Positions 6,301 to 58,053 of a stretch of DNA of 64,000 bases are shown piece after piece. The position numbers and the translations under genes were made by a program. Below the pieces are notes generated by a model. The model was not told the origin of the DNA and did not search any database. It saw only the letters and a program-made list of their open reading frames with translations. This stretch comes from Fragilariopsis cylindrus CCMP1102 (taxonomy: Eukaryota; Bacillariophyta; Bacillariophyceae; Bacillariales; Bacillariaceae). The number at the start of each line of letters is the position of its first letter. Within the stretch, counting starts at the first letter, position 1. The stretch is from the NCBI GenBank assembly GCA_900095095.1, contig FMBT01000489.1:1-64000 (forward strand), read 5' to 3'.

Positions 6301-9300
6301 CATATCAGCAGACATTGCATGGCCACTTGCTGAAAGTCGCGATAATCTTAACTGGTGCGCAAGTTGTAGAGCATTTGTTTGGCGGTAATGGTCGGCAGAT
6401 TGAGCAGACTGAAATTGTGCTTGCAACTGGCCAGCAGCGTGCTGTTGCACCATCCCACCAGAATTTGCAAGGAGAGGACTACCTTGCATCGATGCTAATC
6501 GTTGCTGCTGCTGTGATCGTTCATTCCAGAGCATATTTTGGTGCATTATATTCGCTTGAGTTGCAGCAGCTGCATTCATCGTTTGATTTTGCTGATGATT
6601 TTGCTGTCTACTTCCGTTTCTATTATTTACTGCTTGGCCAGCTTGGGAATTTTGGACATCAGTTTTTTCATCCTGACTATGTACAGATTTCTTTCCATCA
6701 TAGTTGGAATCAAGCAGTATATCTTTGCTACCACCACCACGCAAAGAGAGAGGAGCTGAAGTTTTAGGTTCTATTTTGGTTTCTTGGTCGATATAACTTT
6801 CAGTGATATTGTCTGAATTCAGATCTACGTTTTTGGTATCAAGTTTTTCTATGTCACAGTAAAATGCTTCTGTGCAACTTCGCTTTTGCGTAGAGAGCCT
6901 GTGTTCTAAGTCTCTCAATTTGGATACTGAGTCACTATAAAATGATTCGCTGGTCTCGGTTGTTGAATTTTCACTGAATAACGATGACGCCAAACTTGTT
7001 TGAAAACAAGATCTTTCAGAATTTTTATCTCCAGAAACTGAAGATTTGATTAATCCAACCGCTTTCAGAACATTTAAGGTCAATGAAGAATCGATACCAA
7101 CGCCACCATGCTTCCTGGAATCTGGGATTTGAATTGTACCCGTCGTGTTAAGAAGCATTGCCCTCGCTTTTTCATCGTCTTGACTATCAAGGTAAAGGCC
7201 ACGAATAAAGCCTATCTCAGAAACTCTTCTTTGTTTTTTAGGGCGACCAAGTAATGTTGCATTTGATTCTGCAGCTACACGGGATGGTTCAATACAACGA
7301 ATATCTGCACCTTTGATGGCGGAAGAAGTGAATTGATCCAAGATCTTTCGAATGGATAATGTTGCTCGGGTCGTTCCTGCCTTTTCTTTAGGCAAAACTG
7401 TGATTTTCTTATGACGTCGTCGATCTTTCACTGATGGTATAGGAGGCAGCAACAATTGAAGCTGTGTTGATTGCGAAGCATCGCCTCGTGATGATGTTGC
7501 TTCGTTTTGCTTTGGGACACTACTACTACTAGTCACAGGACGGCGACGACCACCAAGTGAGTCGGGAAAAGGATGTTTAAATCGATGTGGAGTATTTTTA
7601 TGGTATTGAGTTGTCGGCCCTTGAAACGTCCCAACACCACGCTCCATCATGGCCAAGGTAGCTGCACTGTACTTGGTATCCGTTCTTAACTCCTCGTGAA
7701 TAGGATTCAAATTCAGCAATGTATTTAACGACATCGTCGCTTGTACTTTGGCACGAATAGCCTTGGCACTTGCGGGTGTATTATTTTTTTGAGCTCCTCC
7801 ACGCTTAACTCCACTTCCTTTCTTACCGTCCGCTGTTTTGGAGGAAGCACGTGCGCGTGGACCAGTGACTTTTGTCTTTGGCTTTTGAACTAATAACGAC
7901 GATGATACCAAAGAAGGATTTGTTTTAATTGTTGATGTTGAAGCTACTACTGCATTAACAGGTGGTGATTTGAGAGTAGCCATGGTAGTGGCAGTTGTTA
8001 CCGACGGAAGTGATCGTATTAGTGGCGCTGCTACTGGTGTACCACTTCGTTTTATTATTTGGGGCGGCTTTGAATAATTCTTGCTATCGAAGAAATTGTG
8101 TGCTTGTTCCATTCCTTTCTGCTGTGATCGCTTCTCTCGCTCAATTTTTGCAACTTTACCATGTCGGGCACGCTCTAATACAGTTTTTCCGGAAGTGGCA
8201 GCAGCTGCACTTATACCTCGAACTTTCTGTCCTGTTTTGGGATATGTTGGTCCCCGATCTTGGTACATGCTCAAGTCTATACTGGATATGTCATCTTCTG
8301 GTAAAACAACCAAACTCAAACCTGAAGTTACATACATTTTTTGTTCGGCGGCATTGTCAACATTATTAATTGAAGCGGTGATTATATTATTATTGGGATC
8401 TTCAACGGTAGCGGTGGCATCGGATGCAGAGGAACTACCACCGACAGAGTTGTCCTTGGAAGAAGCAGGAGCGTCGGTGGAGGTAGACGAAGAAGGCAAC
8501 GCCGTTGCTGTTGCGGTGGCATCACTATCAGGTTTTTGGGACACTTCTCTCTTTTCAACGTTCTTCACCTCCTTTATCAATTTAATCTCCTTAAGAATTT
8601 TTCGATACATACCGTTGGGATCATTCTCAATCGTTTTGATGATATCATTGGTTTGAGATGGTGGCTGGAGACATATGCGGTATTTTCCATATACTCGTTC
8701 CGTAAAGGCTGCTCGGAGCTGTCGAGTCTGGTCCAAAGCAATCTGCAATCTACTTCGAGCGTCCCCCAAACATGTATCGGTGTAGGTAACATATGGATTG
8801 TACTTTTCTGTCAACGGTGCTCGTTGTCTCTGATATTCCTCGTCAGGAAGGGATGGGGTCGATTCATCTGCAGCAGTGGAATCAGTTTTGGCTGCAGTGG
8901 AAACATTATTATTATTCGAAACGTTTGCTATGATTTTTTTAGCAGTATTTATTTCGGTCGTTGATAATGATAATGGAACGGCGATGGGAGGGATCGATTC
9001 TCTAACGGTAACTTGATGATTGTGAGGTGGAGCTACGGCATGTAACGGCGGTTTCTTTTGAGGAGGACTAATTATACCTGTGGTTTGTGTCGATTTGAGT
9101 CGATGTATTTCTGTCGCTGTCGTCAACATCTTTTTCTTGTCTGCTGTTATCGCATTAGAATTTAGAGAAGCTACGGAACTTTTGTCGTCGGTTTTGATAC
9201 TACGTGGTACCAAAGGCTTGTTAGGCTTTTTGTCTATTGTGACTCTATCGTTCCCATCATCGTTTTTCTTTTCTACTGCATTTGTTTTGCTTACTGCGTC

Positions 9301-9569
9301 GTTATCGACTTTCTTTTCGACCACCGCCACCGACTCGTTCCCTTTTTTGCAATTGCACTGACACTACCTTCTGCAGTCGTCATCTTATGTATACTATCAG
9401 GAAGTGTTGTTGCTACTGCTGCTACCTTACTTATTGTAGTAGTTTCTCGGATTGTTGTTGTACTATTGATTGAAGTCGTGTTTATTATTTGCGCGTTTGG
9501 TACCGTCTTATTTACCGTAGTTTCCATTCCCACCGTCGCGGAAGTGGTTAACTCTTCCGACTTTTTCAT
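3385..9569 (-). CDS. Very large low-complexity protein, function unknown
   Basis: A frame of about 1,850 codons runs from 9330 down to 3760. It continues upstream in another frame to an ATG at 9567-9569, joined across an A6 run at 9343-9348. Downstream it continues through three more frame changes (about 3.80-3.83, 3.62 and 3.51 kb) to a TAG at 3385-3387. The last segment is strongly acidic (DDDEEESDDEVEDL), which supports it as true coding sequence. The protein is long, Ser/Thr/Lys/Asn-rich and mostly disordered. It has an N-terminal folded-looking block (EEYQRQRAPLTEKYNPY), a central Gln/Ala-rich region, a 24-residue tandem repeat, Lys-rich linkers, and a C-terminal block with more hydrophobic residues (DIIAAVILLWLWRNQE). 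No known domain was recognised. The basic and Q-rich make-up suggests a nuclear protein, which is inference only. Confidence 0.75.
5201..5344 (-). repeat. 72-bp tandem repeat, two units, coding
   Basis: Two nearly identical 72-bp units (5201-5272 and 5273-5344) lie inside the large minus-strand gene. Each encodes 24 residues containing KPIQNTPTSISKGVIS and differs at only a few positions, so the duplication is recent and in frame. Confidence 0.9.
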
Positions 9570-24541: not shown

Positions 24542-27500
24542 ATGGCGCCATCGAAAAATACTAGCATGAATTCTTTGGAAGGTCAGCTCAATCATGACGG
24601 CTTTCATAGTGCAAGAGGTAGAACAGTAGGAATATTTATCACCAATACTCTAAAAGGTGCTGTGGGGAGCGCGAGAAAAAGTTTCGAAGGACGAAGACAC
24701 AGACGATCACGACGCAAATCCGAAGATATAGATCCACTCGATCGAGCTGAGGAGCTTCAAGACCATAATAATCATCGTCCTCGACAAAGTCACGAACGAC
24801 GATTTCCAGATAGATTTACAGATAAAACACCAAACGAAAAAGGCAGCGATCATCTCCTCAGCAGCCAGCAGCAGCAGCAGCATAATGATAATGATATTGA
24901 CAATGATATTGATATTGATAATGATGATGGAACAAAAAAATGTACACGATGTATTCGTGGTCCAAGTTATAAACGCGGACATGATATAACATGTCCACGG
25001 TCACAAAAACATGTCGCCAGTTGTAACAACAACAATAACCAACAAAAATCGCAACGTAAAGAGAAAGATGATCAGTTGTCATACAAACAACGAAATCGAA
25101 ATAACAACGAAAAGTACCAGAAGACAGACAACTCAATCGAATCAGTACTGGAACAACTAAGGCATAATAAATCCTCGGCAACAGTTGATTTATGTTGTAG
25201 TGATAATGAAGATAACGCGACGGACGATGGTGATAATTTGAAAGTGGAGTCGAAGTCGAAGTCTGGGGGTAAGCAACGATATCACAAACAATCAGAACGA
25301 AGTAGCGATAATGGCGATGACGACGATGACGACGACGACGACGATGATGATGAGGTACAAGTGGTGTCGAAGTCGTCGGGGTCGATACGCTGTCGTAAAC
25401 AACGACGTCACAGAAAGCCATCATTAGAACTAAGTCCAAGTGAGAATGAAGGTGAGAATGAGTCGGGTAGTAAACATTTCAAGGTATTATTAGATGCAAG
25501 AATCACAAAGAAATGTGATGATAGTGTCAATAACAATAACAACGACAGCGGTCGAGGCGGTCGTAGCAACAAAATGAACAGAGATGGATTAGACCGCCGC
25601 GAAAATTCGAATAGATCATCAGATGAGGAAGTAGGACCCAACATAAGCGGCATTTGAACATCGAGGAGGTGCATACAACAGCAGATTCTTGTTCAAACAA
25701 TGAAAAAAAGCTATCACATCGTCGACAGGAGAAAACGTCGGACGAGGGAAAGAAAAATTTATCCGACGACGAGCAAAAGTCAAACGATGAGATAAATTCG
25801 GACTCCCATCGTTCTAATTCGTGTCAACAACCGCGGGAGGAGAAAGTGGACAAGAAAAGAAGACCCCAATCATCTGACGAGCCATCGGACGAGAGGAATA
25901 CAGAATCCAATTTTCGTAACAGCAAGCAATCATCTCAACAGCAGAAGAAACGAGGGAAGTCACAAAAAAACAACAACACCTCGATTGAGTTTAAAATTCC
26001 AAAACTCAAGAATTCATCTCATTCATCTAAATATAAACCACGAACTGTTGATAGTGACAGTGATAATGATTCTGATGACGACCGAAAGCAACAACAGCCA
26101 AAACCAAAAAATGACGGGTCTTTAGATCTGTTAAAAATGGTCGAAGCTGCAGAATCAAACGACTTCGTCCTACAGAGAACAACAACTCAGAGAAGAAATA
26201 GAGATTCGGCGACCATAGATATGGATATGGATACTTCTTTAGCTTCGACCTCAGATAACATGTCACAAAACTCATCTATCAGTCTCTTCAACATTAGGAA
26301 GGTCGCAAAAAATGGGAAGAAAAAAAAATTAAAAGGAGGAAAAATAATTCCGGGACAAGCAATTATGAACAGCAGGTACAATTATTCCGAACCAATTCAG
26401 AAAAAAACACGACGCAGGGAGGAAGATCGAGATGAAAACCACGATGGTATAAAAGGTGCGACGGCATATTGTGTTTTCATAATGATTGTATGATTTTATT
26501 CTATAGTGAGATGCTCCTTCGATCATTCCGAAAAGATAATTTATTCAGATACTTTCTAATTTTTTTGCTTCTACTCATCTATTGTCACATCAAAATCATC
26601 AGGTGATAACATTCAGTATAGTGGAACGAACAACTGGAACCCACTGAATGGCTCACGATACAGTGATCAACAAAACACACGTAGTAGCTCTACTCGTGTT
26701 AATTCTACATTATCTTCATCTCTGTCACAAGAAAGCACGAATAGAACACGCTCTGCTCGTCCTAAAGCCAATCGTGATACTGAATTCTCGTCGCAAGAAA
26801 GCCCCAGAAATAATAGACGATCCAAGAGAAATAATAAAAGAACACCTGAAACCATCGATATCACAAACAGCGATAGCGATAGCGATGATGATGATATCGT
26901 TATGGAGGATAGCCAGATTGTGGAGGTAAGTTCTTGTTTTCCTTTTCTTGTCGCTTCAGTCAGCTTTTCCACTTTGTTAATTTGTCTTCCTTTATAAACA
27001 ACCTGATGTTGCCGTGTCTCTCTTTATCTACTCTTAACTTTTTAGTTCACCTTAAAGCGTGTTGCTATCAACAATAAAGTACGCAATCAAGAAGATTATC
27101 AACCCATGATAAAATGTGATTTTGAATCGAACACTATGCTTCTTAGTTATAATAAATCTAAGGTAGATGTAACTAAGGGCCGCGCAGAAATTCTTATTGG
27201 CATTGGAGATGTACAAGAAATGTCCTATTTTGAAATGAATGACGCAGCCGTGCAGAATAACATCGATCTAGACCTAGACAGCTTTATCTACTTTCGTGCA
27301 GAGGCCGAGCGCCCAGGTGCAAGAAGTAGAACTCGGGAGTATAATTTTGAACTTGAATTTGAAGAAGATGATCATCTTCGTGATTTAATCCAGGCTGTTG
27401 AGGACAGTGGCATCTTAACTCCGTTACAGACACAACCGGAAGACATTGAAATTAATGCAAAAGCATTGATTGAAGACTCGCGTATGAAATATAAATTAAG

Positions 27501-29037
27501 AAGCCAAGCAGCTCCCCAAAAGAAAGACCCCTTCATAGCCAACAAGAAGGACGACGACATCTTACTTGTGTATCCATTTGGAGAGGACAAGACCAAAATT
27601 GAAGCAGCTGCATCTGATCTTACTAAGCTTTTATACAAACAAACATATGATGACCAAGATTCAACTGAACCGAAGAAAGCTAGTACCGAAACAAAAGATT
27701 TGTCGACAACACAAGGTAGCCAAAGATCGCATCAAATTGTGATTCGAGTGGAAGATTACGAAAAGCTTGAGGACGGGCAGTGGCTAAACGATTCATTGGT
27801 CGATTTTTGGATGCAGTGGATTTCACGTGACATTAACTTTAACTGCAAATCTACCGATGTGCATTTCTTTACTTCACATTTTCATTCAACATTGGCGTCA
27901 GACGGGGTGGAGGGGGTCAAATCTTGGACTGTTCGGAAAAATATCAACATTTTTGAGAAGAAATTGATCTTTATACCAATCAACAAGACACTTCATTGGT
28001 CACTATGTGTGATAGTAAATCCAGGTGCAGTAGAGAAATCTAACCTAATATCAGTGGAAGATGACAAAGAAGACTCACCATTATCATGTATGCTATTTTT
28101 CGACTCTCTAAAAATGCATAATAAAATGAGATCTCAACGACTTCTACTTAAGTGGCTCAATTCTGAATGGCAACGGGTCAATGACATCTCTAGCACTCCT
28201 TCACCAAAAAAATTACCAAATATACGACCCTGAAGGTATGTTTGAATTGCTTTGTGTATTGTACTTGGATTTCATGGTTGCCTTTCACCCTATATTAACA
28301 TTTTTATTGATCCTTTTTCTTTTCAACTGTATCACAGTCCCAAGGCAAGATAATGGTTCTGATTGTGGCGTCTTTGTCTGTCGTTACGCCTGGCTATGTT
28401 TAAACTTCGTCACCTGGAATTCACAAACAAAGAAGCTGGTATTGAGAAAGGATCTGACTCAATTCCCACTGGTCATCGTTTTACTCGCCGCACAATTACA
28501 AGAAGGAATGGACCTTTTTCAAGACTCATCACAAATGGAGAAGATTTTAATTTTAATTGTAGGGACATTCGCCGTATTCGAATTGGCATATCAAACTTTT
28601 ATTAGGAATCTCCACCCACTGTATGATCAATTTAACAAGGCCAAAATTGAGACGGAAAAAGAAGAAAGGAAAGCTAGAAAAGAATCGAGGCGCAAGGGGA
28701 AGGTAGAAACTACGGCGCGACAGGACCATCGAGCATTGACGAGGACCAGAAAGAAAACTCAGTAACGGGCGTTCATACCTCGACGACGAATGGAACGAAA
28801 GAAAACTTAACGGACATTCATACCTTGACGATAAATGAAACGAAAGAAAGCTCAGTAGCGGACATTCACACCTTGACGATAAACGAAACGAAAGAAAAAA
28901 CTTAGTTACGGACGTTCGTACCTCTTCGACGAATGAAACAAGCGAAATTGTCAAGCACCCTTTGGAAGATACTCAAGACGAAGCTACGAAAAGAGCATTG
29001 CCGGAAGGTCCGTTAGAACAAGTAGTTGATGTATGAT
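24542..29037 (+). CDS. Ulp1/SENP-type SUMO-specific cysteine protease
   Basis: Peptidase family C48, which matures SUMO or removes it from conjugates. The first ~700 residues (24542-26450) are disordered and rich in Ser, Asp, Lys, Arg and Asn, with a poly-Asp tract at about 25310-25355. Exon 2 is about 26602-26925; exon 3 (27046-28235) holds a PH-like stretch and the protease domain (DGQWLNDSLVDFWMQW). The catalytic set is complete: His in LHWSLCVIV (27993), Asp in FFDSL (28102), and Gln and Cys in PRQDNGSDCGVFVC (28364), the last in exon 4 after the intron 28236-28337. An A7 run at 28206-28212 is one base too long; with six, SPKNYQIYDPEV runs straight into PRQDNG. Other frame breaks lie near 25.64, 28.40, 28.60, 28.70 and 28.90 kb. 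The C-terminus carries a 16-residue repeat and ends at TGA 29035-29037. The boundary of the first intron (about 26445-26601) is uncertain at the donor. Confidence 0.9.
28749..28939 (+). repeat. Tandem repeat of about 48 bp, four units, coding
   Basis: Units start near 28749, 28797, 28842 and 28890. Read in the protease's final frame, each encodes about 16 residues of the type TKESSVADIHTLTINE. Spacings of 48, 45, 48 and about 50 bp fit a 16-codon unit with one codon lost and a miscounted base in the last unit. Confidence 0.8.
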
Positions 29038-34519: not shown

Positions 34520-35561
34520 GGTGATTGTTGTTGTTGTTGTTGTTGTTGTTGTTAGTAGTAGTAGTACTAGTATCTGGTTGTGGAAAACGGTTGGCGAGCA
34601 ACTCTCTTGATGTAATAAATATTGAGTGTGTTTGGCACAAGTTCAAAGTTGTGGGATTAAATTAATAATACTATCGAAAACGACAACTATCGATCGAAGT
34701 GCAAGTGTCCACAGAATATAATTCTTATTTTCATGTTAAATATTTATCATCAAAAAGAGTATGAAGTGTCAACGGGACCAGCTTTTTCTTCTGTCGGCGA
34801 TGTTCCTGGAGAACTCTCGCGTCGCGTCAAGTGTAGTATGTATCTTCAAAGGCTGAAATACTGGTTGAGGAAGCCTCTTCGTGCTTGGCATTCTACTTCC
34901 TTGGGAATTTTGGCGGCACGCACAAAATACCTCCTAAAATATTTTGTGAAGATGCACTTGTATTTGTATTTGCATGCGTTTGTCATTTTTTGTAGGGATA
35001 CGCACGACTCAAATGTGCCGAGTCGTGCCATGTCATACTCATTGAAAATCTTATTCCGAGAGAAAGCTAACGTTACAATGATTCTTCTTGAGAAAAATAC
35101 TAGTACTGCTAGTACATTTAGTAGTGGTAACCTCGGTGCAACTCGAGTTGCAATCCCGTCTCTGCTAGTAGCACTACCTACTACTACTATACTGGAACTG
35201 ATGCTACTTATGAATCATATCTATCTCTTTATCTCTTGTTCTATACTTCATTATACTATTCATATATGCTAGAATAATAGTAGCTGTCGTTGTTCCCCCT
35301 TTTCCATTACAAGTGCCCCCAAATCGGATTCTACAATGATCAATACGTACTTTACATTTGCGTTGTGGTGAATGTATTATCTACTAACTTTGGATTTTGG
35401 GACTAAAACCAAATATATACAATATTCTATATTGTATAAATAATGAATGCATCCACGACTGGCCTATCAAAAATCACCCGCGCCTTACAATCATGATATC
35501 ATGATCAATATTTTCTCTTTTTTTTATCGAAAGATCGGAAGATTCGAAACAGCATATTCGA
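34520..35561. other. Intergenic, contains dyad repeat copy 2
   Basis: Starts with GTT and TAG microsatellites (about 34527-34573), then AT-rich sequence and the second repeat copy. No gene was recognised. The final 40 bp lead into the menin-like gene. Confidence 0.5.
34970..35055. repeat. Dispersed dyad-bearing repeat, copy 2
   Basis: Same core and CACGACTC(9 nt)GAGTCGTG dyad as 33210-33300, in the same orientation about 1.75 kb away. On the minus strand both copies open with ATG and encode MARLGTFESCVSL, then QKMTNA. The six-base length difference keeps the frame, and the two differ by a synonymous change. Confidence 0.85.
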
Positions 35562-38026
35562 ATGAGTAACAATTCAAGAACACTTGCCTCGCCCGGGAAC
35601 TACAAGATTTCAAGCAGGATGAGTAGCAGTAACAGTAGAAGTAGTATCGCCTTCGACGACGACGACGACGACCACGATGACGGTGACAATAATGGAAACA
35701 ACAAAAGCTTGTTCTTGCCACCTTTCGAATCGGACCATTGGGAAAAATTAGGAGTCCAAGAAGGAGATTACATGATTGAAAATGTTGATGAATTAAAGAA
35801 ACGATTCCAATCCGATATCACGAATAAGAATGAGAAAGGTGAAGGTGAAAGAATAATCACTATTGATGGTAATAATAATAATAGTAATTATATTGATGAA
35901 GGCAAAGTACTGGCATTATGGAGTTGTATTGTTGGTTATTGTGAAGCTATATCAACCCACAAAGAACGAAATAGAAGATATAACATTTATCCTATACCAT
36001 ATGATGCACTACAACGATTGATTGGAACAGAATTTCATGATAAAATTATTTTAAAAGCAGGTATTATCAATAATAATTCCGGTAGTAGCACGTCGTCGTC
36101 GTCGTCGTCGCAGCAGCCTAAGCCTGATTTAGAGTTAGACCTAGATGTATTGCAGACACAGCATCGTACATTAGTTCAAAGTGTCTCGAATGCTGTTTGG
36201 GATACAGCTGTGAATAAATCCAAGAGTAGTAATAGTAGTCGAGATGAATTGCATGCCAACAATGTGTATGTCTGCCTACGAGGAGACATCGATAATAAAA
36301 GTCTGGATTGTTTTGGATCAGCTATTACCACCATCGCGGCGGTACAAATGATAGTATATTCAAAAAGAAACAACGACAACGACAAAATCAAAATCAGAAA
36401 AATCAGGATAATAATGAGGAAGCAGGAACTACTACTACTACTACGATCGTAGAAACAAAATCAATGTTAACATTAAGTGAAGATCATGCCTACGAACGAC
36501 ATACCATCACCACCACTATCGTTAATAATACTACCAATAAGGACCACGCATCGGCATCGGCACCAGCAACATCAACAGAAGCGAAACAAGAACAACAACA
36601 AGTCGTTATAACAACAACAACTAAAGAAGGAACGTGTGAGGTAGCAATACCAGGATCTACAAAAAAAGATAAATCAAAACGTGGTGGTGATATTGCTGAT
36701 ACTTTTATAGGAAAGAAGAATTCTAAACTATTAAAACCAGAATCATCCTGGTTGTATATGTCCAATAATCCGGTAATTTGTGATACACTTCTAATGGGAT
36801 TAGTTCATATTATTGGTAATATTAAATCTAATATCAATCCAAGAAAGAACAATAACAACAAAAAGTCGTCGTCAATTATGGCTGCTGGAAAAACCGGCAG
36901 TCGTAGTAGTAGTAGTAGTAGTAAATCACTTGAAAGCCGTCAATTGTACATATTCAAACGTGAATTACTTTGGGTGTTATATGACTTGAATGGAATGGAA
37001 AAATGTCCTTTCGGGTATATGGAATTAGGAGATTGTGAACAAACAGTAGAATCATCACGTGGGAATGAAGTGGTTGAAATTACTAAAAAATCACGGCCAA
37101 GATTATGGAAGGTGTGTGAGGAACTGTATGATGATTTTGGTCTCAATGATAATAACAATGAATGCCTCATGAATGAAGTGCTGTTATTGAAAGCGATTGT
37201 TATATCAAAGGAAACTTATAATGATCGTCAAGTATATCCCTATTATTATTTAGGTCATTATCATAAAGATGCTGGCAAGAATAGCAACAACAGTAGCAAC
37301 TTTTCAAGTGGTTCCACTGATGTGGATGACGATGAGCCTGAACATCAATTTATTTATGCGATCCGTATGTACGTGGAAGCTATACGTGTAACGGCAACAT
37401 ATTATAGATATGATATCGATGATTGCAAGCAATTGAATAAACATATAACAACAGTTACACAATATATTTATGAAGATATATTACAAGATCGGAAATGGAA
37501 GAATACTTCAAATGCAGTATTATGTTGTAACTGGTTATTTAAATTTATTGATCTATTATTTTACTACGAAGAATATACGCTGCTACAAAATGATAATGCT
37601 GGTATACATACTAATAATCAACATTTTGTGGATACATTGCAACTCAAACATAAATTTTCATTTCTAAAATTGATTCAAACATTTGACTATGAAAGTGTAC
37701 GAAAATGTGCTTTAAATCGTCTCTTAACCGAACAAGAAAAGTACAACGAACAACAGCAGCAACAGCAACAACAGCAACAGCAAACTGTTGATGAAATAGC
37801 TACAACGCCAACGTCTTCTACTACTAGTACAACCATTACTACATCACCACCACGACCCTTTCGATCAAAACGGATGGAAACTTTAGTATTATCCAGAAAA
37901 TTGATGAAAAATAATCCTAAAATTGTTGATATGGATTTAGTCATAATTCTTGATGATGACAATAATGACAACGAGAGCAACAACAGCAATGGGGGACGAA
38001 GCCAAAGAAAAAGGCGACGTCGATAG
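35562..38026 (+). CDS. MEN1: Menin homologue (chromatin scaffold)
   Basis: Menin is a nuclear scaffold that in animals tethers MLL/KMT2 H3K4 methyltransferases and JunD. Conserved blocks occur in family order: VSNAVWDTAVNKS (menin VSDVIWNSL), an Ala/Ile-rich helix before a long insert, LSEDHAY (menin LSEDHAW, about 36470-36492), CEVAIPGS and SSWLYM (menin RSWLYL), FKRELLWVLYDLNGMEKCPF (menin KLLWLLYDLGHLERYPM), KETYNDRQVYPYYYLGHYH (menin KTYYRDEHIYPYMYLAGYH) and NWLFKFIDLLFYYEE (menin LLRFYDGICKWEE). Low-complexity Asn, Gln, Thr and Ser inserts enlarge it to about 821 residues against about 610 in human. One frame break lies near the A5 run at about 36361. Adding one base gives 2466 bp, divisible by three. 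It is convergent with the next gene, with 75 bp between stops. Confidence 0.88.
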
Positions 38027-38101: not shown

Positions 38102-38929
38102 TTAATAATCGTCATTATCACCGAAGTCACGTGTTCTTCGACTTGGAGATCCATCAAACCGCCGGTCAATTGCTCGTCTCATACGGTGTTCCTTCTTAGT
38201 CGTTGGTAAATGTTCCCAAGCGGATGCTTTATCGCCGACTAGCCGATCAAGAGCAGTACTAGATGGAGCATTTTTACCATCCTGTAAGTTAGCATTATCA
38301 TCATACAGAGATAAACATCCAGGAAATTTCATATATTCAGCACCCTTCGTATTGTCTGATGCATCCTTAATGCAACGGAGCAATATATCTTCATTATTCT
38401 CCGCTGTTTCCGAATCGTCTTTTGCGGAATGAACACGAAGTAACGCAACCCAGACATAACTCCATGCATCATATGGATGACTACATCTGAATTTCAATTT
38501 TCTACCCCAGGGCATGTTGAGAGTAAAATCCTCCTCCCAGTCACGAAACTCGTCCATAGTGCTACAACGACAAGGAACAGCGAGTAAATCATAAAGCGAA
38601 TCGGAAACGATTTTGAGTATTTCGTTGCATTGAACAAGTGCTACACCTTTACCCACACCAATATCTAACACAGTTTGTAACGGTTTCTGTATAGCGCAAA
38701 ACCATTTCATCTTTGTTTCTGCTTGTTCCTCATATCCATCGTGCCAATCGTCATTTACTTCACGGGCTAGCTGTTTTACAATGGCATTAAGTTCCTCCTT
38801 GATTACATTAAATTCATGTTTGGTCAAACCGAGACTTTTTTCCGTAACCGACTTTTTACGTGGTTTCTTCGTCGCTGATTCGGTGCTGGTGGTGCTTGTA
38901 CGCTTCTTATCATTACCGGTAGATGCCAT
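38102..38929 (-). CDS. Conserved-looking protein of unknown function
   Basis: Encodes 275 residues in one intact frame. The N-terminus is basic and Thr/Ser-rich (KKPRKKSV, a possible nuclear localisation signal). A helical globular middle follows (about residues 35-180: HEFNVIKEELNAIVKQLARE, VLDIGVGKGVALVQCNEIL, WGRKLKFRCSHPYDAWSYVW). The C-terminus is Arg-rich and charged (EHRMRRAIDRRFDGSPSRR). The DIGVGKG string recalls a Rossmann or methyltransferase glycine loop, but the surrounding pattern does not fit a methyltransferase, so this is not claimed. There is no membrane segment or signal peptide. It is probably a nuclear protein. No family was recognised. Confidence 0.75.
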   Translation of the reverse strand: MASTGNDKKRTSTTSTESATKKPRKKSVTEKSLGLTKHEFNVIKEELNAIVKQLAREVNDDWHDGYEEQAETKMKWFCAIQKPLQTVLDIGVGKGVALVQCNEILKIVSDSLYDLLAVPCRCSTMDEFRDWEEDFTLNMPWGRKLKFRCSHPYDAWSYVWVALLRVHSAKDDSETAENNEDILLRCIKDASDNTKGAEYMKFPGCLSLYDDNANLQDGKNAPSSTALDRLVGDKASAWEHLPTTKKEHRMRRAIDRRFDGSPSRRTRDFGDNDDY

Positions 38930-39327
38930 TATCTTTGATTACACAATTCATTATTGTACTAGTATGAAATGAAAGAAAAAATGAAAGGTAAAATCACAAA
39001 TTTTATATCTTTCTTGTCAAGCGCGCAAAAAAATCATTTTTTCCGATTCATTCGATTCATTCATAATGCTATTTAGTCTGTCTAACGTCCGTATCGGTAT
39101 AACATACTACTTTACTGTACGTGTTACGCACAAACTCTGTCGATCTGAATAAATGCAATAACAAACAACAGCCTTAAGGTGACCTTAACATAGAGACATA
39201 ACTCTTCGTTGCTATTGTGTTCTTGTCGTCTTTCTATAGATCATCGTCGATAACATTCATTTCGTATTGTCCGCATTGAATAGTTGACGCTACTATAATT
39301 TCACCATAAACATAAAAGGATATCATC
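38930..39327. other. Divergent promoter region
   Basis: About 400 bp between the minus-strand unknown gene and CBP20. It contains a short ATTCATTCGATTCATTC repeat near 39045-39062. No other element was recognised. Confidence 0.45.
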
Positions 39328-46441: not shown

Positions 46442-49400
46442 TCATTTCATCATATTCTGTAGATAAAGTGCCAATGATCCGGACAGCGCTATATCTGTGG
46501 ACTTGACTGTGATATCAACTTTCGTTGCTCCGCCACCGAGTGGCGTAATCTTTCCGTGGACCAAAATAACGTTCGATCCACCATCTACCATCCCAGCGCA
46601 GATAGCTTCGTTTGTTGCTGCGATAGCTTCAATAGGATATAATCCAGAACTTTCACATTCTTTCATAAATATATCAAGCGATGTAACTTTTTGGGAAGTT
46701 AAAGAAATTGGGGATGTCGCTGGGCATCCACCCCAGTTACCTCCAAACTGTGCTGTGTCAATCTTAAGCGGAGCCATAACGACACCATTAAATTCGAATT
46801 TCGATGTAGAGCCACCAAATCCCTGCAGGGTATTCTCTGAGAGATCTCCTAAAAGGCCTTCGGCTGCGAATGGATCAACAAAAGTAGCTGGAGCTGGAGC
46901 GGGAATAGGGACTGTAGGTTCATCGTCATCGCTTACTGTCTCTACAAGCGGAGCAGCTTCGACAGGTGCTGCTGGGGTTGGTTGTAGTGTCATAGCCCCA
47001 AATATATCATCTACGGCAGTGGGTGCCGCAGGAGCGGCATCGTATCCACTACCAAAATCTAATAGATCAAATTCGGGCGCTGGAGCGGAAACTGATGGTG
47101 CAGCAGCCACAGGCGGCGCTGCTACTGGTACTGGTGGTGAGGGGGGCATAGCTCGAGGTGGTGGTGGTGCCGCTCCAGGAACCATTCCACCGAATAGGAA
47201 TGCTGCTTGTCGTTCCTTTTCAAGTTGTTCTGGTGTTTTTGTTGGGACAACAGGTGCTGGTGCTGGTGCCGATCCATATCCTCCATACGAGGATGGTCCA
47301 CCACCACCAAATGAGTTCGCCCTGTCTGTCTGGTACTGTGACGAATTGAACGCTGATGGTTGAGGAGAAGTCACTACGGCTGCTGCTGCGGGTTGCTGTG
47401 GAGAGGGAGCTGGGGCTGCTACAGGTTTTTTCCCCCACACGTTGGCGGCACCACGTGTGTTCAAACTCAATCCATCACCAACAGCATCTACACTGGTAGA
47501 TACCTGTGCTTGTGTTCCTGTATTGCTACCGGGTGGTAATGAAACACCCCCAGGACTTGCAACACCTCCACTTCCTCCTCCCGCGCGAGACATCATTACG
47601 GATCGGTTTATATTCGTTTCTGGCTTGGCGTATGGGGTCATTTTGAATGCACCAGACCCACTCGTATTGATAGCGCCGTAATCGTCGTCGTCGTCATCGT
47701 CGTCTTCAGGCTTTTCGTATGGCCGGGCACCATTTTCGAGAGCTTGATGACAAAAACCGTCCAGGAAGCTTAGATTGATGTCTACCTCCATATCTTCGGC
47801 CGACGCATCTACCGGCAAAATATCACCGAGATATTGTGGAGCAGTCATTAGTATTGCTTGAAATTCCAAGCAACGTTGCTGTAAATCAACGTCCTTACTA
47901 CGAGTATATTCATCGACAACAGCAGCCGCTTGAGGAGGACATGTTCCGACTTGCGCGACCAATTTGAAAACAGCCGATGTCAAGAATTTTCTCGTGGACG
48001 GTTGTAAAATAGCCTTGTTCCATTGACATAATTTAGACAGAATTTCTTCCAACGACATAGCAACACTCAAATAGGCGTATTCACCCAAACACCATGCCAT
48101 GGTCTCTAATAATATTTTAGGTAATTTCGCTGGTGGTTTGTCTTGCAACAACTGGACGTAAATTTCGATGGCTGTTGATCGAAGCATCATATCTGCCTCT
48201 TCCGATTCACCTGTTCCTTCGGCGATCAAACTCATGAGATTTTGTGCTACTTGTTGATCGACAACATCACCGGATACCTCGAAGAGTTGTGTGATTGTTT
48301 TAATGTACCAAGAGTTACTGGGTGCGTACCGTTCCGCAACACTACATACACGTGTTGTCAATTGCTTCTTTAAAAATACATCGGTTGTACCACTCAAAAA
48401 GAGTAAAGTTTATCGGTAATAAATTCAACATTAACGGGATTAGTCATCCGGTAGAGAAGGTCCAAAGTTTTCCGTTGTAATGTCTCGTCGCGATCTTCTA
48501 AGCAGTCCATTACGCTCATCTGATGTTGAGCTGCATATTGTGGATGTGTCTCGACGATCATCGCTAGACCCGTAACGCCCAGATACTTTAAGTTGTGCGA
48601 TCGAGAGTCAATGAATCTAGCAATGGCTTCGCCGGCTGCGTCCAAGAGTTTCGCATTGGGATAAATTTTCGTTATACACTTGACGCATTCGTATACAATT
48701 GCGTATCCTGCTTGATACCGACGTCGGCCTGTTTCATCGTTTCATTGAGTATTTCATACATGCCACTACTCGCCGTGGCATCGCCCTGTCCTACCATACT
48801 GAGGATACGAACAAGTCTAATTTGCATCCATGGTGCAGGTACTTTATGGTAATCAAATTCAGTAGGCAACCGATGTTCAGCAATTTGTTTCAAGATGCTG
48901 ACTAATGAAGGGATTAGTTCCTTAAACTTAACTGGATCTCTAATACAAAGATCTTCGATAACATTCAAACAGCAACCCATAACGAAGGATCACGATCACA
49001 TAAGATCTTTCGGACCTTTTCGTACAGATCATCAAAGGTAACAACATCTGGTGCCAATTGAAATAATCTGTGTAATGTAATGATAGCCTTTTTTCGGACC
49101 GTTTCACTGTCGTGTGTGATGAGTTTCGTTACCTCCCCAACAATCGCTGGAGCCATATCTGGGGTTATTAATGACGTTGCTGCCAATAAACCACCACAAA
49201 TCTCTAAAACATTCGCCGATTGCATATCACGTTGCATTTGATTGACAAGCATGAATCGGAATTCATGGTCCGGACTCAGACACGCTCCACAAACCAAATA
49301 TCCAGTTCTTTTGTGTATAATGAAGCTGATGCAGCCATTTCAACCGCCTTAATGTAACCGAATGAGGCATCGTGACCCAACATTTCTACATACAGTAGAC

Positions 49401-49596
49401 GGACTAAGTATTCTTTCGCTTTCTTTTTACTTTGTAAAGGATTTTTATGTCCTTGTGGAGTAGGCTCTAGCTTTTTTTTCAAACATTGTACTTCCTTTGA
49501 GATGATACGATCTTCCTCCTGTTTCGACTTCGATTCTCCTATCGCCTTTAAGAGTTCAAAGAACTCTTTGGATAAATTGACTCCACCTGTCGCCAT
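46442..49596 (-). CDS. AP4E1: AP-4 adaptor complex subunit epsilon
   Basis: Large subunit of AP-4, a clathrin-independent coat at the trans-Golgi network. The trunk begins SKEFFELLKAIGESKSKQEE and KEYLVRLLYVEMLGHDASFG and continues through KKAIITLHRLFQLAPD, LVSILKQIAEHRLPTEFDYH, PAPWMQIRLVRILSMVG and ITKIYPNAKLLDAAGEAIAR to SHNLKYLGVTGLAMIVETHP, DCLEDRDETLQRKTLDLLYRM and ETMAWCLGEYAYL, all as in epsilon adaptins. A Pro/Ala-rich hinge follows and then an appendage-like C-terminus. Four frame breaks (T4 at 49309-49312, near 48.97, near 48.66, and the A5 at 48396-48400) are each one base short. Adding four bases gives 3159 bp, exactly 1052 codons plus stop. No introns were seen. It is convergent with the BTB gene. 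Confidence 0.92.
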
Positions 49597-50570
49597 CTTT
49601 ACCCTTGCTTATAGTTTAAATTGTGGGACAACTGACAAAATAAATGACTTGCTCAAATTCGAATGTACAACGCCGATTTATATTGACGTGATAATGCCGT
49701 TGGGAGACTTTTTTCTGTCACGACTGACTCGTGACTGAGTAGAATTTTTGACAATTTTTAAAAGTTGGTGTTGCGAAGAGATTGCTCACCATCAGCACAA
49801 TGATGTATGTTGTATCAGCTTTAGAAAGTGGACCATATATTAACCAAAAGTAGAGAAAACAACCATACTAATAAACGTACCCAGTTACAGTAGGTCCTAT
49901 GTAATCATATGCATAGTCAATGTGCATTCCTACGAAAGAACAACACGTGTAGCGCAAGGAAATTATTTGTATGGGGTGTCTGTAGTACATTAAATTATTT
50001 GCATCTCACCATGAGGAATAAGATCTACTGAATGCAATCAGTGTCTCTATTACTGCTGATTGGCTGAGTACAATAGAGTAGTCGAAATATCTACCTAAAT
50101 TGGCGGAATAAATATGGTGGGGATATAGTAACACGGATTACTAGACAAAAGAAGCTCTCTGTTATGACCAACAATACACACCAACCAAACTGTTTCTAGG
50201 TATCCATAGAGTCATGGAATATCTTCAAAGAAGTGGTACCATGCAATATAAAGTAAAAGCTCGCTTTTTTGTATTCCTTCCCTAAAATATTGGTTGGTGA
50301 TAATTTCACACTTAACATAAGAAGATCATTATCAATTAGTTCGACAATAATTCAGAGTTTAATGAGATAAATTGTGTATTGAATAAATTCACTATTCAAA
50401 GTGACTCGTAGATAATTTATCTTTGGAGAGAGATTTTAAATCAAAACATAGATCAGCAATGTCAATGGCAAAGAAGGCACATACAAGTGACTACATCCAG
50501 CTATTTTATATGCTTCCAATATCTACTGTTAATATTATAAATATTTCTACTATCCTGATTAACTATGAGT
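49597..50570. other. Intergenic upstream of AP-4 epsilon
   Basis: AT-rich and without a recognisable gene. A 6-bp dyad TCACGA/TCGTGA (49718-49734) lies about 120 bp before the AP-4 ATG. Confidence 0.5.
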
Positions 50571-51354: not shown

Positions 51355-52885
51355 CTTAGAAAAGAAGTAGTTTTTTTATGTATTCTCGATCTTTCGAAGT
51401 TAGTTATCTCGAAGGAGGTAGTAGGGTATGTCTTATGGTGGTGGTACTAGTATGTGTTAGTTGCTTTATTGTTTGTGTTGTCGATGGTCGAAAATATATA
51501 AACAACGTGATAAAAATCTTTTAGGGGTCAGTTTTTGACCCCCAAATCCCTCATTTCATATATCCCCGATATCAAATATTAATATTAATTCTACCGCGAC
51601 CTCCCACCATACCCCTCCCCCGTTTCAAATGGAGCGCAATCACCATCAGCGACCCAAGAGAATGCGTGAAGAAGAAAATACGGCACAAAAGAAAAGTTTT
51701 TGTGCCGCAACGCAATAGCCCGCCCGCCCATTCAAAAATTAATATCGCGATTGGACCTTACTCATACATACATCCTCTAATGCTCTTTGGATACACTACC
51801 CCGTAGAGTGAACAGAACTGGAATCAAATTTCTTTGGGAATCCTTTTAAATTCCATACTATATCTTTACTGTTATCTAGTTGATATCTGAACGTTATATT
51901 GGGATAAGGTAAGAACTCGAATGCTTTTTATTGCCATTTGATTTGAGACTCATCGTCGTAGACATCGTGGTGCATTTATTGAAAGTTTGGGTATCATTTC
52001 CGACCGTATCGAGCTTTATTTTTCCACAATTCCCCAATTCCACGCCCAAGCTGTAATCAATGTATTACAATTGACCTGTCCTGTCCATGTCATACTCCAT
52101 GAAGACCCTCTTCTACCTACTAGCGGGTGCCGAAACAGGCAACAACAGGGTACGACGTCGTTGATAAACAAGCATTTACCTCAATTGAAGTACTCTTGGA
52201 GTGTACTTTACTACTTTTTTGTTTCAACGCGCTGATTGCTCACTGAACTCACGAAAATGAATGAGTCGAGTCCTATTGCTTGGACTCGTGATTGAATGAA
52301 CCAATAGAATCGTTTCACGAACCTATTCCGACGTGTCATTTCATCAATTTCGCATACTGCTTGTGTGTGTCTTTTTGTTTTCCAACTGAATAATCTGTCG
52401 GCGCGGGCCCCTTCTCCTCGATTTTTGACTTCAACAAAAAAATACCCATAAAACGTCGTTACTATTTCGCACCACTCGTCACATCATCATTAGATAGTAT
52501 CTCGTTGATGATGATCATTCGTATGATCTTAAGGAGTTATTTTCTGATTGATTTGAAAATAATAGAGGAAAATATTCATTTGAAACAAACACAATACACT
52601 TTCAACTTATACCAATTACTTCCCATCTTTGTCCTGATAACCATATACGTTGATTTTCTTTTACATTACAGACGGTAGACGACGACACAGAACTCACAAG
52701 GATCGACGAGAATGTTGCCTCTTTCTATGATGCACAACAACGTTTCCCAAGAACCCATCGACGCGAGTGAGAGGATGGGGAGATTGCTGAGGAAGTTAAT
52801 GTCGCAGCAGTTATGGTGATACTGATGCTAATGCTGTTACGGACACCGTAGCACAATTAACAACGACGAGAAGAAGGATGTAGAA
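51355..52885. other. Divergent intergenic region
   Basis: About 1.5 kb between prefoldin 4 and SIN3. It contains an inverted repeat at 51681-51707 (CGGCACAAAA and complement, loop of seven bases) and a CGAGTCC/GGACTCG dyad at 52267-52288. A possible acceptor (acattacag) lies at about 52663-52671, so the SIN3 transcript may have an upstream non-coding or short coding exon. No gene was recognised. Confidence 0.5.
51681..51707. repeat. Inverted repeat, 10-bp perfect stem
   Basis: CGGCACAAAA at 51681-51690 and TTTTGTGCCG at 51698-51707 with a short A-rich loop. On the plus strand it ends in a T run before the second arm, so it is not a classic terminator. Function unknown. Confidence 0.7.
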
Positions 52886-54013
52886 ATGACGGATGCTGGC
52901 GCTAATGTTTCCTCTGCTACTCCACCAAACAATATTAATCATGATACAGATAATAATAATATTAATACCACAACGCAGTTTGTACAACAGGAAGAAGAAT
53001 TGCCACCAACAAAGCCTGAGCCTGAAGAACAACAGATGCAAACCAAGGAGGAGGAACCTGAATCACCTCCTGTACAAATGGATACAACTGAAAATACCTC
53101 GGTGGAAGATCATGACCCTGTTGTGACAAATACAGCGACAGCAGAAGAGGAAAAGTATATTATTGCGTCGTCACCGCCATCACCATCACCAGAACAACAG
53201 AATGGGGATACGGCAGTGCATCCTTATAAACCTGATAGTCCTACCAAAGAAGAATTTATTGCTCCTGAGGATCCTTCTAAAGAAGAATCTATTGCTCCTG
53301 CTGAGGTGGACCCCGTCGAAGTTCCGACCAAGCCTTCCACTCCTCTAACGGAATCTAATATGGTGACAGAAGAAGAACACCACCGGAGTCTGATAACATT
53401 GGTGGCAGACACAGCCGACACGACGGAAAATACGACTACTACCACCACCACCACCGAGGTTTCCGCACCTCCTACTACCACGGCGGCGGTCGAAGGTTCG
53501 GAAGATGGAGAAATTACTGGTACGGAAGCAGATAAAGGGAGGAATATATCGTCAGCGTCATCTCAAGCAGAAGAAACCATCCCAAAATTTGACGCCGACG
53601 CTACTAGTACGTCAGCGGCATCTCTGACCACTAAAGCTCCTTTGGTCGATTCTGGTGATGTTACGGAGGAGCAGAAGCCGATCAATACTTCACCATCACC
53701 AACACCCCAATCTCAACCACAACTGCCTCAAGGATCGGGATTCCAATTAGGAGAGGAAGGATCCGCATCTAATCAGAGCGGAAAGGAGGTAGAAGATAAG
53801 GTGGACGATGTCGCCGTCGATGCTACCACAAATGATCCCGTTGTGGCCTCGCTTGACGATGGAAAGGAACCGTCTTTGGCAACAAAAATAGCAGAAGATG
53901 TTCCAGTACAAGAGTTTACGTCCAAACCTTCTAGTGAGAACGGTGGCAAACCTTCTGATGAGAACGATGATGTCGAGATGACTGTCGAGAAGCAAGATCA
54001 ACACGTGACATGA
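52886..54013 (+). CDS. Acidic disordered protein, probably the N-terminus of SIN3
   Basis: Encodes 375 residues, rich in Glu, Pro, Thr, Ser and Asp (for example PPTKPEPEEQQMQTKEEEPE), without folded domains, membrane segments or cysteines. Its TGA (54011-54013) overlaps the ATG of the SIN3 frame (54010) as ATGA. Bicistronic overlaps are not expected in this lineage, and single-base breaks are frequent in this window. The simplest reading is therefore one gene in which a missing base between about 53980 and 54013 separates a long disordered N-terminus from the Asn/Gln-rich and PAH-containing part. The alternative is a separate small gene ending at the SIN3 start. Confidence 0.55.
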   Translation: MTDAGANVSSATPPNNINHDTDNNNINTTTQFVQQEEELPPTKPEPEEQQMQTKEEEPESPPVQMDTTENTSVEDHDPVVTNTATAEEEKYIIASSPPSPSPEQQNGDTAVHPYKPDSPTKEEFIAPEDPSKEESIAPAEVDPVEVPTKPSTPLTESNMVTEEEHHRSLITLVADTADTTENTTTTTTTTEVSAPPTTTAAVEGSEDGEITGTEADKGRNISSASSQAEETIPKFDADATSTSAASLTTKAPLVDSGDVTEEQKPINTSPSPTPQSQPQLPQGSGFQLGEEGSASNQSGKEVEDKVDDVAVDATTNDPVVASLDDGKEPSLATKIAEDVPVQEFTSKPSSENGGKPSDENDDVEMTVEKQDQHVT

Positions 54014-57000
54014 ACAATCACAATATGAACAACCATAATATGAACAGTCTTTTATCGAAGATTAATAATTCGTCGACTGAGAGTGCCTCCACAGCGGCGG
54101 CCTCTAATGCTGCTTCGCAAGATTCTCAACAGCAACATCAACAACGGCCACCAAGTTTCAATAATTTTCAACAACAGCAGCAGCCTATTTCAAGGAGTAA
54201 CTCGAATGATGGAGTAGGACCTTCCGGTGTTATGGCTGTTATGAATAATAATGGCGGCAATCCTCTTGGTCTATCTACGGGTGGTATGCCGATGCCAGGT
54301 ATGAATAATGACGGTAAATCCAATTTCTTTAATAACATGGCCAATAATGATATGAACAACAATAGTGGTCAACATGCGGGGTCACATCAGCCTGTACGAC
54401 CTCCGCCACCGATGGGACCTATGGGTGGGATGAGGGAGCTCCGTGTGGAAGATGCCTTGCTCTATCTTGACGATGTGAAGAGAGAATTTGGCGGCAAACC
54501 TCGTGTCTACAATGAATTCTTGGCCATCATGAAAAATTTCAAGAGTCAAGAAGTTGATACACCCGGTGTCATCGCCCGTGTATCTAAATTATTTCGTGGA
54601 AATAATCACTTGATTTTGGGATTCAACAAGTTTTTACCTGACGGATACAAAATTAGTATGGAAGATTTGAGACAAATGGATCAGGCCTATGCACGGGAGG
54701 AGGAGATTGTGCGACAACAGCAGGCAGCCATGGCTGCTAAAGGGCAACATCAGCAACATGAACACCAACAACGTCAACAGTTCGAGGCTCAGATGCAACT
54801 ACCACAGCAAAGATTATTAGCAGAGCGACAAATGCAACAGCAACTCCAGCAGCAGCAACAGCAACTACCACCCTCGCATATGGCTGGTCCCTTGTCTCAG
54901 CAACTTCAGCAGCAGCATCAACCACCGATCCAGGATGTGCAGATGAAACAAGCACAAGCAAATCGACAACGGATGCAAGTTGCCACGGATTTACAAGAGC
55001 AACAGCGCCAACAACAGGCTATCCCAAAGCCTCCGAAACAACCAAAACAAGGGGGCAAAGCGGGGAAGAGCCGCAAAGTACATGATGTTATTCCACCGCA
55101 GCAACAGCAACAACCGCAGCAACCACCACCGCAACAACAGCCTCAGCAAATACAGCAGCAAAATCAACCGCATCAAGCTGTCGAATTCGACCATGCTATT
55201 TCGTATGTGACTACGATCAAACGAAGGTTTGCGAATGATCAAAGTACTTACCATTCCTTTTTGGAGATTCTTCACACCTACCAAAAGGAACAACGAGGAA
55301 TCAAGGAAGTCTTGGAACAGGTTGCGCACTTATTTCAGGATCATCCAGATCTTTTGAAGGAATTCACCTTCTTCCTACCCGATGCTGTCCAGGAGCAAGC
55401 AAAAGAACGATTGCACCGTGCTGCAGCTGAATCTGAAAGTCGTCTATCTGCACAAAAAGATAAGAAGAATAAGCAACTTCAGGGTTCCTCAAAGGAGATT
55501 GTCGACATGACGGAGCATCCAATACCTGTCGATCAAACCGAGGCACGTGGGCAAAAGAGATACCACAAGGATGTACAGGAAGCTCCAGTCGTAATCACCT
55601 ATCCTCAGACTCCGGAGACCTTCGTGTATAATTCGGCAGTAGAACGTCAATTCTTTGATGCTGCCAAAGAAGCCCTTGCATCGTATACTCGTGATGGTGG
55701 TCAGGCATGGGCAGAATTTATGAAGTGTCTCGACATGTACGCACAGGAATTCTTTCTAGGAGTGAAATGCTTAATTTTGTTGAGCCACTTCTTGGTAAAC
55801 GAAACAATAAACTCTTTGAAGAATTCAAACGTATCCTGGCCGCGGCTGGTGGCCAAGGGACGAATACGGTCCCTTCGATGGAAGATTCTTGGTACTCTGT
55901 TCCTTTATCAGAGATCGATTTTAGTAGGTGTCGTCGATGCAGCCCATCATACCGCGCCTTACCACGTGATTATCCTGCCCCTCCATGCAGCAAAAGAAGC
56001 GACGAAGAAAGGATGGTTTTAAACGACGTATGGGTTTCTCTTCCTGTTGGAAGTGAAGAGAGTTATACCTTCCGTCACATGAGAAGGAACACGTACGAGG
56101 AGACTCTTTTCCGTGTCGAAGATGAACGATTTGAGATCGACATGACAATCGATAGCAATCTTTGCACTCTGGCACTCTTGGAGCCATTTGCACAGGAAAT
56201 GGCACAACTCTCGGGAATGATGGTCAGATGCAGATCGACAAAGAAAACGAATCGAAAACCAATATGGAACAAAAGGGACTCGGCGGGAAACGTTTTCGGT
56301 ATACGTTCGATCCAACTATTTTGGGTGTCATCCATCGAAATTCTATCACTCGTATATACGGTGACATGGTGCAGAGATGCTAGAGTTGTTGAAAACTAAT
56401 CCTTCTGTGGCTATTCCTATTGTAGTTGATCGTCTCAGGCAAAAGGACGTTGAATGGCAGAAGGTCAGAGACCGACTCAATCGTCACTGGAAGGAAATGG
56501 CAGAAAACAACTATTATAAGAGTCTCGATCATCGAAGTCTTACATGGAGAACCACAGACAAGCGAGCGATCAGTAATCGGACGCTTCTTACCGATATTAA
56601 GGATAGAGCGGCTAACGACGGGATGAAAGTGAAGCAGCGCTTCAGGTTCGTATTGACAAGGCAAAGAAGAGCACGGATTATTCTTTGAAGTTACTATGGG
56701 CAATGCGTTCCTTCAAAAAATTGATCTTTCCGTACTACCGAAACCAGATCGGAGACTTTTACACCGGACATGAGTCTCATGTACGAGGATACTGCTTGGG
56801 TTCAAAAGGATGCATACAGAATACTTTCTTTTGCATTGGAGAGGGGTTCCATATCCCCGACCGACAAGGAGAGGTGCCACCGTCTTTGGACTGAGTTCCT
56901 TGGACCTTGGTTCGACTTAAACCTAAACTGGATGTTGACGCCAGCAGTTAATTTCCAAGAAACAAAGACGTCGTCGTCCAAGATTCCACGGGTCGTCAGT

Positions 57001-58053
57001 AAAGACGATAACAGCCCAGAGGAGGATGAAGAAGAAGAAGATAGTCTCGACGAAGAAGGTGAAATCAATTCCAGAATTGTGACGGAAACTGTCCGTGATG
57101 ATGAACATGATTGTGATGATGATTGCGACTCACCTACTCATATGGATCATCATCCGCTTCCTGCGGGTTCAACTGTTACTACAATTTACGGAGAAGGTCG
57201 TATTATGAGCTGCCGCACCGATATATACGTTGTGAAATTGGCGTTTGGGACCGCCTATCTGCGACCTAGTGCCGTTCTTTGTTCTGTTCTTGCAGCCGAA
57301 AAATCTGCGTATACCACACAGCGAATGGATGACGACAATACGAAATTGGATCGTCCGAACGACAAACTTATGATTGGTACCCAAAGTCTTTACTTGTTCT
57401 TTCGGCTCCATCAAATTCTTTGTCGTCGCATTGGCATAGCAAGGAAACTTGCTTTTGAAGTAAAAAATGACCCGTCGTTGCAAACATTAGTCGAGCAAAT
57501 GCCCGGTCAATACGGTAGCGGTGCCGCTGCGGGTAAAAGACGATACGATGCATTCTTGTCGTTGGTATACGCACTACTCGATGGTGGAACTGGCGGGGCT
57601 GCAGAGGGGGGTAAATTTGAAGATCGTGTTCGATCATTGTTGGGACACGGGGGTTACGAACTTGCTACTATGGACAAGTTGATTTCTCATATTTTGAAGA
57701 ATATCCAATCTATGGCAAATGATGATACCATGTGGAGTCTGGTGCAGCTATTCCGTCGTCATCTCGATGCAGGTGGATTCAAGCCCGAGGCATTCCGTCA
57801 GGAAGCAGCATACCTATCAGATGGGGAACACATGTATGCCTTCCAGCTCTGCCCGATCCACAAAGATAGAGGGGACAAATCTGTCTTGTACGTGGAGAAT
57901 TTGGGTGTCATTGTTGGATCGGAAGAGGAAGATTCATTACCATCGGATCCTCCGTCGAAGAAACAAAAACAAAAGAACCAATTTCAAAGAGACAGAAACG
58001 ATGATATTTTCTTTGTCTATCAAAATACAATACATACATATAATAATATTTAG
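54010..58053 (+). CDS. SIN3: SIN3 transcriptional corepressor scaffold
   Basis: SIN3 bridges DNA-binding repressors and class I histone deacetylases. Paired amphipathic helix domains are clear: PAH1 (LRVEDALLYLDDVKREF to NKFLPDGY, about 54440-54660) and PAH2 (FDHAISYVTTIKRRFA to FTFFLPDA, about 55185-55390), separated by long Gln-rich tracts. A third helical repeat precedes the HDAC-interaction region, which reads across frames as CSPSYRALPRDY, VLNDVWVSLPVGSEE, YEETLFRVEDERFEIDM and DPTILGVIHRNSITRIYGD. RQKDVEWQKVRDRLNRHWKE and NYYKSLDHRSL follow. The C-terminal Sin3a_C-like part (56770-58053) includes a YGEGRI...YVVKL...AYLRPSAV beta motif not expected in animal SIN3. Frame breaks lie near 55.75, 56.21, 56.38, 56.65 and 56.77 kb. 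It is convergent with the glutaredoxin gene. Confidence 0.92.

Follow-up and report, generated by a model that had tools for sequence, protein, structure and literature searches.

The DNA analyzed here (64,000 nucleotides in full, hereafter referred to as the window) contains at 35562..38026 on the forward strand a gene coding for a homolog of menin, a protein that is best known in animals, as a human tumor suppressor. The gene encodes approximately 800 residues across one break of the reading frame and was assigned by Pfam, PDB, and hhalign comparisons. We estimate a probability of about 0.8 that it codes for a genuine menin, although a strongly diverged one, from Fragilariopsis cylindrus or a very closely related species, that it is a nuclear gene present at one locus, that its product likely functions as a chromatin adaptor with a central cleft, and that the frame break is likely an indel. 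Menin is now placed in a photosynthetic stramenopile, a polar diatom, and the diatom protein adds to a known family. No report of menin in diatoms or other protists was found in the open-licence literature among the matches listed; databases may hold an annotation.

Gene structure and family membership

The start codon (ATG at 35562) and the stop codon (ending at 38026) are located where the first-pass annotation had placed them. Between them, the coding DNA is split over two overlapping open frames (35505-36452 and 36299-38026). The first-frame part (35562..36353, +) encodes a low-complexity N-terminal extension, followed by the N-terminal region up to LDCFGSAITTIAAVQMI. The second-frame part (36453..38026, +) contains the LSEDHAY, SSWLYM, LLWVLYDL, and YPYYYLGHYH blocks, a helical region, a C-terminal block, a basic tail, and the stop codon. 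The C-terminal block (RPFRSKRMETLVLSRKL...) together with the Arg/Lys tail occupies 37853..38023 (+) and is weakly alignable to the C-terminus of human menin (6/29 residues identical in the MAFFT alignment). Read across the break, the gene yields a joined protein of 799 residues; of several possible joins, this one was scanned against profiles.

The joined protein matched the Pfam family Menin (PF05053) with 28.7 bits (cut-off 23.6 bits, E 5.8e-7) and thereby passed the profile check that had been proposed in the first-pass annotation; no other Pfam family was listed at E 0.1. The separate halves of the protein scored 18.0 and 13.6 bits, both under the cut-off, which presumably is the reason why a frame-by-frame search of the whole genome (67.9 Mb, 818 contigs) with PF05053 at the default threshold gave no match; the controls were without a match too. 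A search of the PDB at E 0.1 returned 23 distinct sequences. The first was 3re2 (8.4e-7), with four matched stretches in order, followed by menin chains including the human one at E 0.0085 or weaker. Entry 3re2, whose PDB record reads "Predicted protein", is presumably the menin of Nematostella vectensis. It has LDCFG, SEDHA, and the Glu in TAEV/TCEV in common with the diatom protein, whereas the long low-complexity inserts belong to the latter.

Compared with human menin (MEN1, isoform 2), the diatom protein obtained an hhalign score of 80.7, versus 13.4 for its reversed sequence and at most 24.0 for 100 local shuffles. Nine blocks aligned in order with the human protein by MAFFT, with 7/15, 6/18, 7/10, 5/13, 7/18, 17/38, 13/28, 8/26, and 6/29 identical residues, and the overall identity was 29% over 507 aligned columns interrupted by many large gaps. 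These results bear out the initial identification of the gene as menin from the order of its conserved blocks. The two proteins are alike in block order and in the C-terminal block, but the diatom protein is longer by approximately 60 residues ahead of the part matching the human N-terminus. Its richness in Asn and Thr, remarked upon from the window alone, is real as well (8.8% N and 7.8% T, compared with 2.3% and 4.8% in human menin). Single-sequence structure models, one for the second-frame part and one for the helical core within it, reached mean pLDDT values of 37.1 and 36.5, respectively, and were unusable. On the level of sequence, the comparisons show that the protein belongs to the menin family, that its blocks follow the family order, and that the core blocks and a Cys-His-Glu set are conserved.

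A search of the genome with the DNA of the gene retrieved, apart from the window itself, 47 short matches, nearly all of them to the Gln-repeat part. The corresponding protein search gave the window and 12 weak matches, mostly to the low-complexity C-terminal part. Menin thus is present at one locus, without a second assembled allele. Directly downstream, a 278-residue frame at 38102-38938 (-) is convergent with the menin gene; no Pfam family matched it above the respective cut-off.

By analogy with animal menin, we infer that the diatom protein folds like menin and would hold partner proteins in a central cleft. A nuclear location is probable because of the basic tail, whose Arg and Lys residues may constitute a nuclear signal. 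The protein may work as an adaptor, probably in H3K4-methylation complexes or in other chromatin complexes.

Binding pocket and candidate partners

The part of PMC8022399 considered here names 18 residues of human menin that contact MLL or inhibitors. Six of these 18 (L177, S178, H181, A182, Y319, and Y323) are identical in the diatom protein according to the MAFFT alignment, in which the gapped parts are uncertain. The identical residues are located in the LSEDHA and YPYxYL blocks; the assignment of pocket residues at 228-241 and 329-366 is uncertain because of the low identity and the many large gaps. E359 and E363, which hold Arg12 of MLL in human menin, correspond to Gln and His in the MAFFT alignment and to two Lys in an ungapped hand alignment of region 335-380, whose fit was no better than that of neighboring offsets. 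Unlike in human menin, both positions are non-acidic in the diatom by either alignment, and the acidic pocket for Arg12 is kept in neither of them. Judged from these alignments, the diatom and human proteins have the core and the old enzyme-like site in common, more than the surface that grips MLL.

A KMT2-like protein with a menin-binding N-terminus had been suggested as a partner to look for. The genome indeed encodes a trithorax-type KMT2-like protein, which contains a PWWP domain, PHD fingers, a bromodomain, an extended PHD, FYRN, FYRC, and SET, but the second part of the suggestion found no support, as neither FPxxP nor FAxxP was detected in its frame or upstream. The same frame of 1988 residues was found on contigs C51 and C139, which are taken for alleles (locus L053, 521-6484, minus strand; L054 has a frame of equal length). 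Upstream of it lies what is likely a short first exon, beginning MSTGRGWVMTPEDKV. F[PA]xxP was absent from this frame and from the three frames over approximately 3.4 kb upstream, and also from the SET frame on contig C355; among the 86 SET stretches of the genome, the motif search covered C355 and the C51/C139 protein. FYRN matched at three places in the genome and FYRC at two, the third FYRN place (L056; C91:60500-67500) with 27.9 bits.

The menin-binding motif of MLL presumably has the RWRFPxRP-type/FPxxP form. A strict DNA pattern of the RWRFPxRP type had 0 matches in the genome, and the backward control had 0 as well. The integrase-binding domain of LEDGF (PF11467) also had 0 matches in the genome at E 1, a weak null result, since the search treated each exon separately and none of the 14 control genomes had a match above the cut-off either.

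The sequences compared lend no support to docking as in animals. Docking would differ in detail from that of the animal menin-MLL pair, because the acidic pocket for Arg12 is kept in neither alignment, and the KMT2-like protein shows no FPxxP in the frames searched and itself contains a PWWP domain. This domain could make a LEDGF-like bridge unnecessary. Since neither an FPxxP-bearing KMT2 nor LEDGF was found when sought, the diatom may offer a natural test of menin without the MLL partnership.

A candidate Cys-His-Glu set

Three residues of the diatom protein, namely Cys250 of LDCFG (model numbering; 36309..36311, +), His287 of SEDHAY (36485..36487, +), and Glu338 of TCEVA (36638..36640, +), align with Cys, His, and Glu of 3re2 (LDCFG, SEDHAW, TAEVTW) and with Ser154, His181, and Glu195 (of TAEVT) of human menin. 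The human protein thus shares the His and the Glu with the diatom, but has Ser154 where the diatom has Cys. The relevant portion of PMC10318531, where PF05053 is named, places menin in the papain-like superfamily, describes human menin as probably inactive and devoid of a catalytic cysteine, and states that some members keep the full triad. The Cys-His-Glu set of the diatom is therefore a new instance of a pattern that has already been noted.

These residues raise the question of whether the diatom protein is an active enzyme of the transglutaminase/papain fold, in which Cys250, His287, and Glu338 catalyze and partner binding is secondary, with animal menin being a relative whose cleft serves as a peptide dock. 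The complete set in both the diatom and Nematostella proteins and the superfamily assignment (PMC10318531, in the portion mentioned) are in favor of this explanation. So is the fact that Leu177, Ser178, His181, and Ala182, which are listed in the considered part of PMC8022399 as contacts of MLL Phe9 and MI-2 and are identical here, lie at or beside the triad in the sequence. However, matching three residues in pairwise alignments demonstrates no geometry and no activity, the protein is not known to have a substrate, and Glu as third residue of the triad is our own reading of the alignment. Moreover, although the candidate Cys-His-acid set resembles that of transglutaminase-like or papain-like fold enzymes, the diatom protein has no listed profile match to any enzyme family. 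We consider this explanation unlikely and prefer the interpretation as a chromatin adaptor.

An enzymatic role of the diatom protein is possible as far as these residues indicate, and because the Cys-His-Glu set is kept, a lost enzymatic function can be tested by simple mutation. A tentative evolutionary scenario, to which we give a rather small chance, is that menin of early eukaryotes was a Cys-His-Glu enzyme of the transglutaminase fold, which would have been kept in diatoms and cnidarians, whereas the human line lost the Cys and the cleft became the dock for MLL. If this were true, the pocket that is filled by leukemia drugs would be a former active site.

Host genome and origin of the gene

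The first-pass annotation had suspected a diatom-like stramenopile as the source of the window. This is corroborated by silicon transporters in the genome (best E 1.1e-226) and by the ice-binding family (DUF3494), which matched 53 stretches. The best PDB match of one ice-binding locus (L061) was 6a8k (1e-112), which we take to be a protein of F. cylindrus, and that of another (L058) was 9li0.

Menin is best known in animals, and the gene might have been gained through lateral transfer, with an animal or some other eukaryote as the donor. The strong divergence and the low-complexity inserts speak against a recent event, however, and no relative was found in scans of two non-eukaryote collections with six peptide patterns each. 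Of the 46 stretches matched in viral_contigs, where some of the patterns were of low complexity, and the 47 matched in genome_contigs, 0 were confirmed. We tentatively regard lateral transfer as very unlikely.

Frame break and neighboring genes

The change of frame takes place within 36354..36452 (+). Conserved blocks are read in the first frame up to about 36353, the next one, LSEDHAY, is read in the second frame, and the switch to that frame has to occur before 36452. Among the GT-AG pairs enumerated in this region, some restore the frame. The best candidate intron, 36354-36418, was chosen as the longest GT-AG candidate that keeps both flanking blocks; it has a length of 65 nt and contains 15% T. 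Six introns were used for comparison, namely five gaps between exons of silicon transporters (a fourth transporter locus, L065, was left out) and, from the KMT2-like gene, its first intron. These are approximately 140-280 nt long and contain 36-43% T, and the candidate was judged less likely to be an intron because it is short and T-poor in relation to them. An intron from 36354 to 36452 fails to restore the frame and is absent among the frame-restoring pairs.

A second gene in the window is also broken. The gene for the epsilon-type adaptin of the AP4 complex (AP4E; window 46445-49608, -) is split over several frames, and its frame change at 48397-48409 leaves no room for an intron, with six profile positions between the two Adaptin_N matches. 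Such a frame change points to indels in the assembled sequence. For the FALCON assembly of F. cylindrus, nine fosmid rows given in a section of PMC5634323 list 0 to 135 indels per fosmid, some of which may be allelic. Since the candidate is unlike the other introns, AP4E is broken too, and indels in the FALCON assembly are documented, an indel is likelier than an intron. The frame break in menin most likely is an indel in A-rich DNA coding for Gln and Asn, either as an error of the long-read assembly or in one allele. That the break is real and menin a decaying pseudogene is highly improbable: there is one frame break and no second copy for comparison, but the approximately 1.6 kb past the break stay open and contain conserved blocks, the break falls between conserved blocks, and the fosmid rows mentioned above (PMC5634323) document indels in the FALCON assembly.

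The SIN3 homolog and the SUMO protease that had been reported from the same window were both recovered. The former (52832-58050, +) is spread over several frames and contains PAH repeats and Sin3a_C, and the latter is represented by an Ulp1-type C48 protease domain at 27046-28230 (+). The window furthermore contains, at 3763-9363 on the minus strand, an open frame of 1867 residues that matched no Pfam family at E 0.001.
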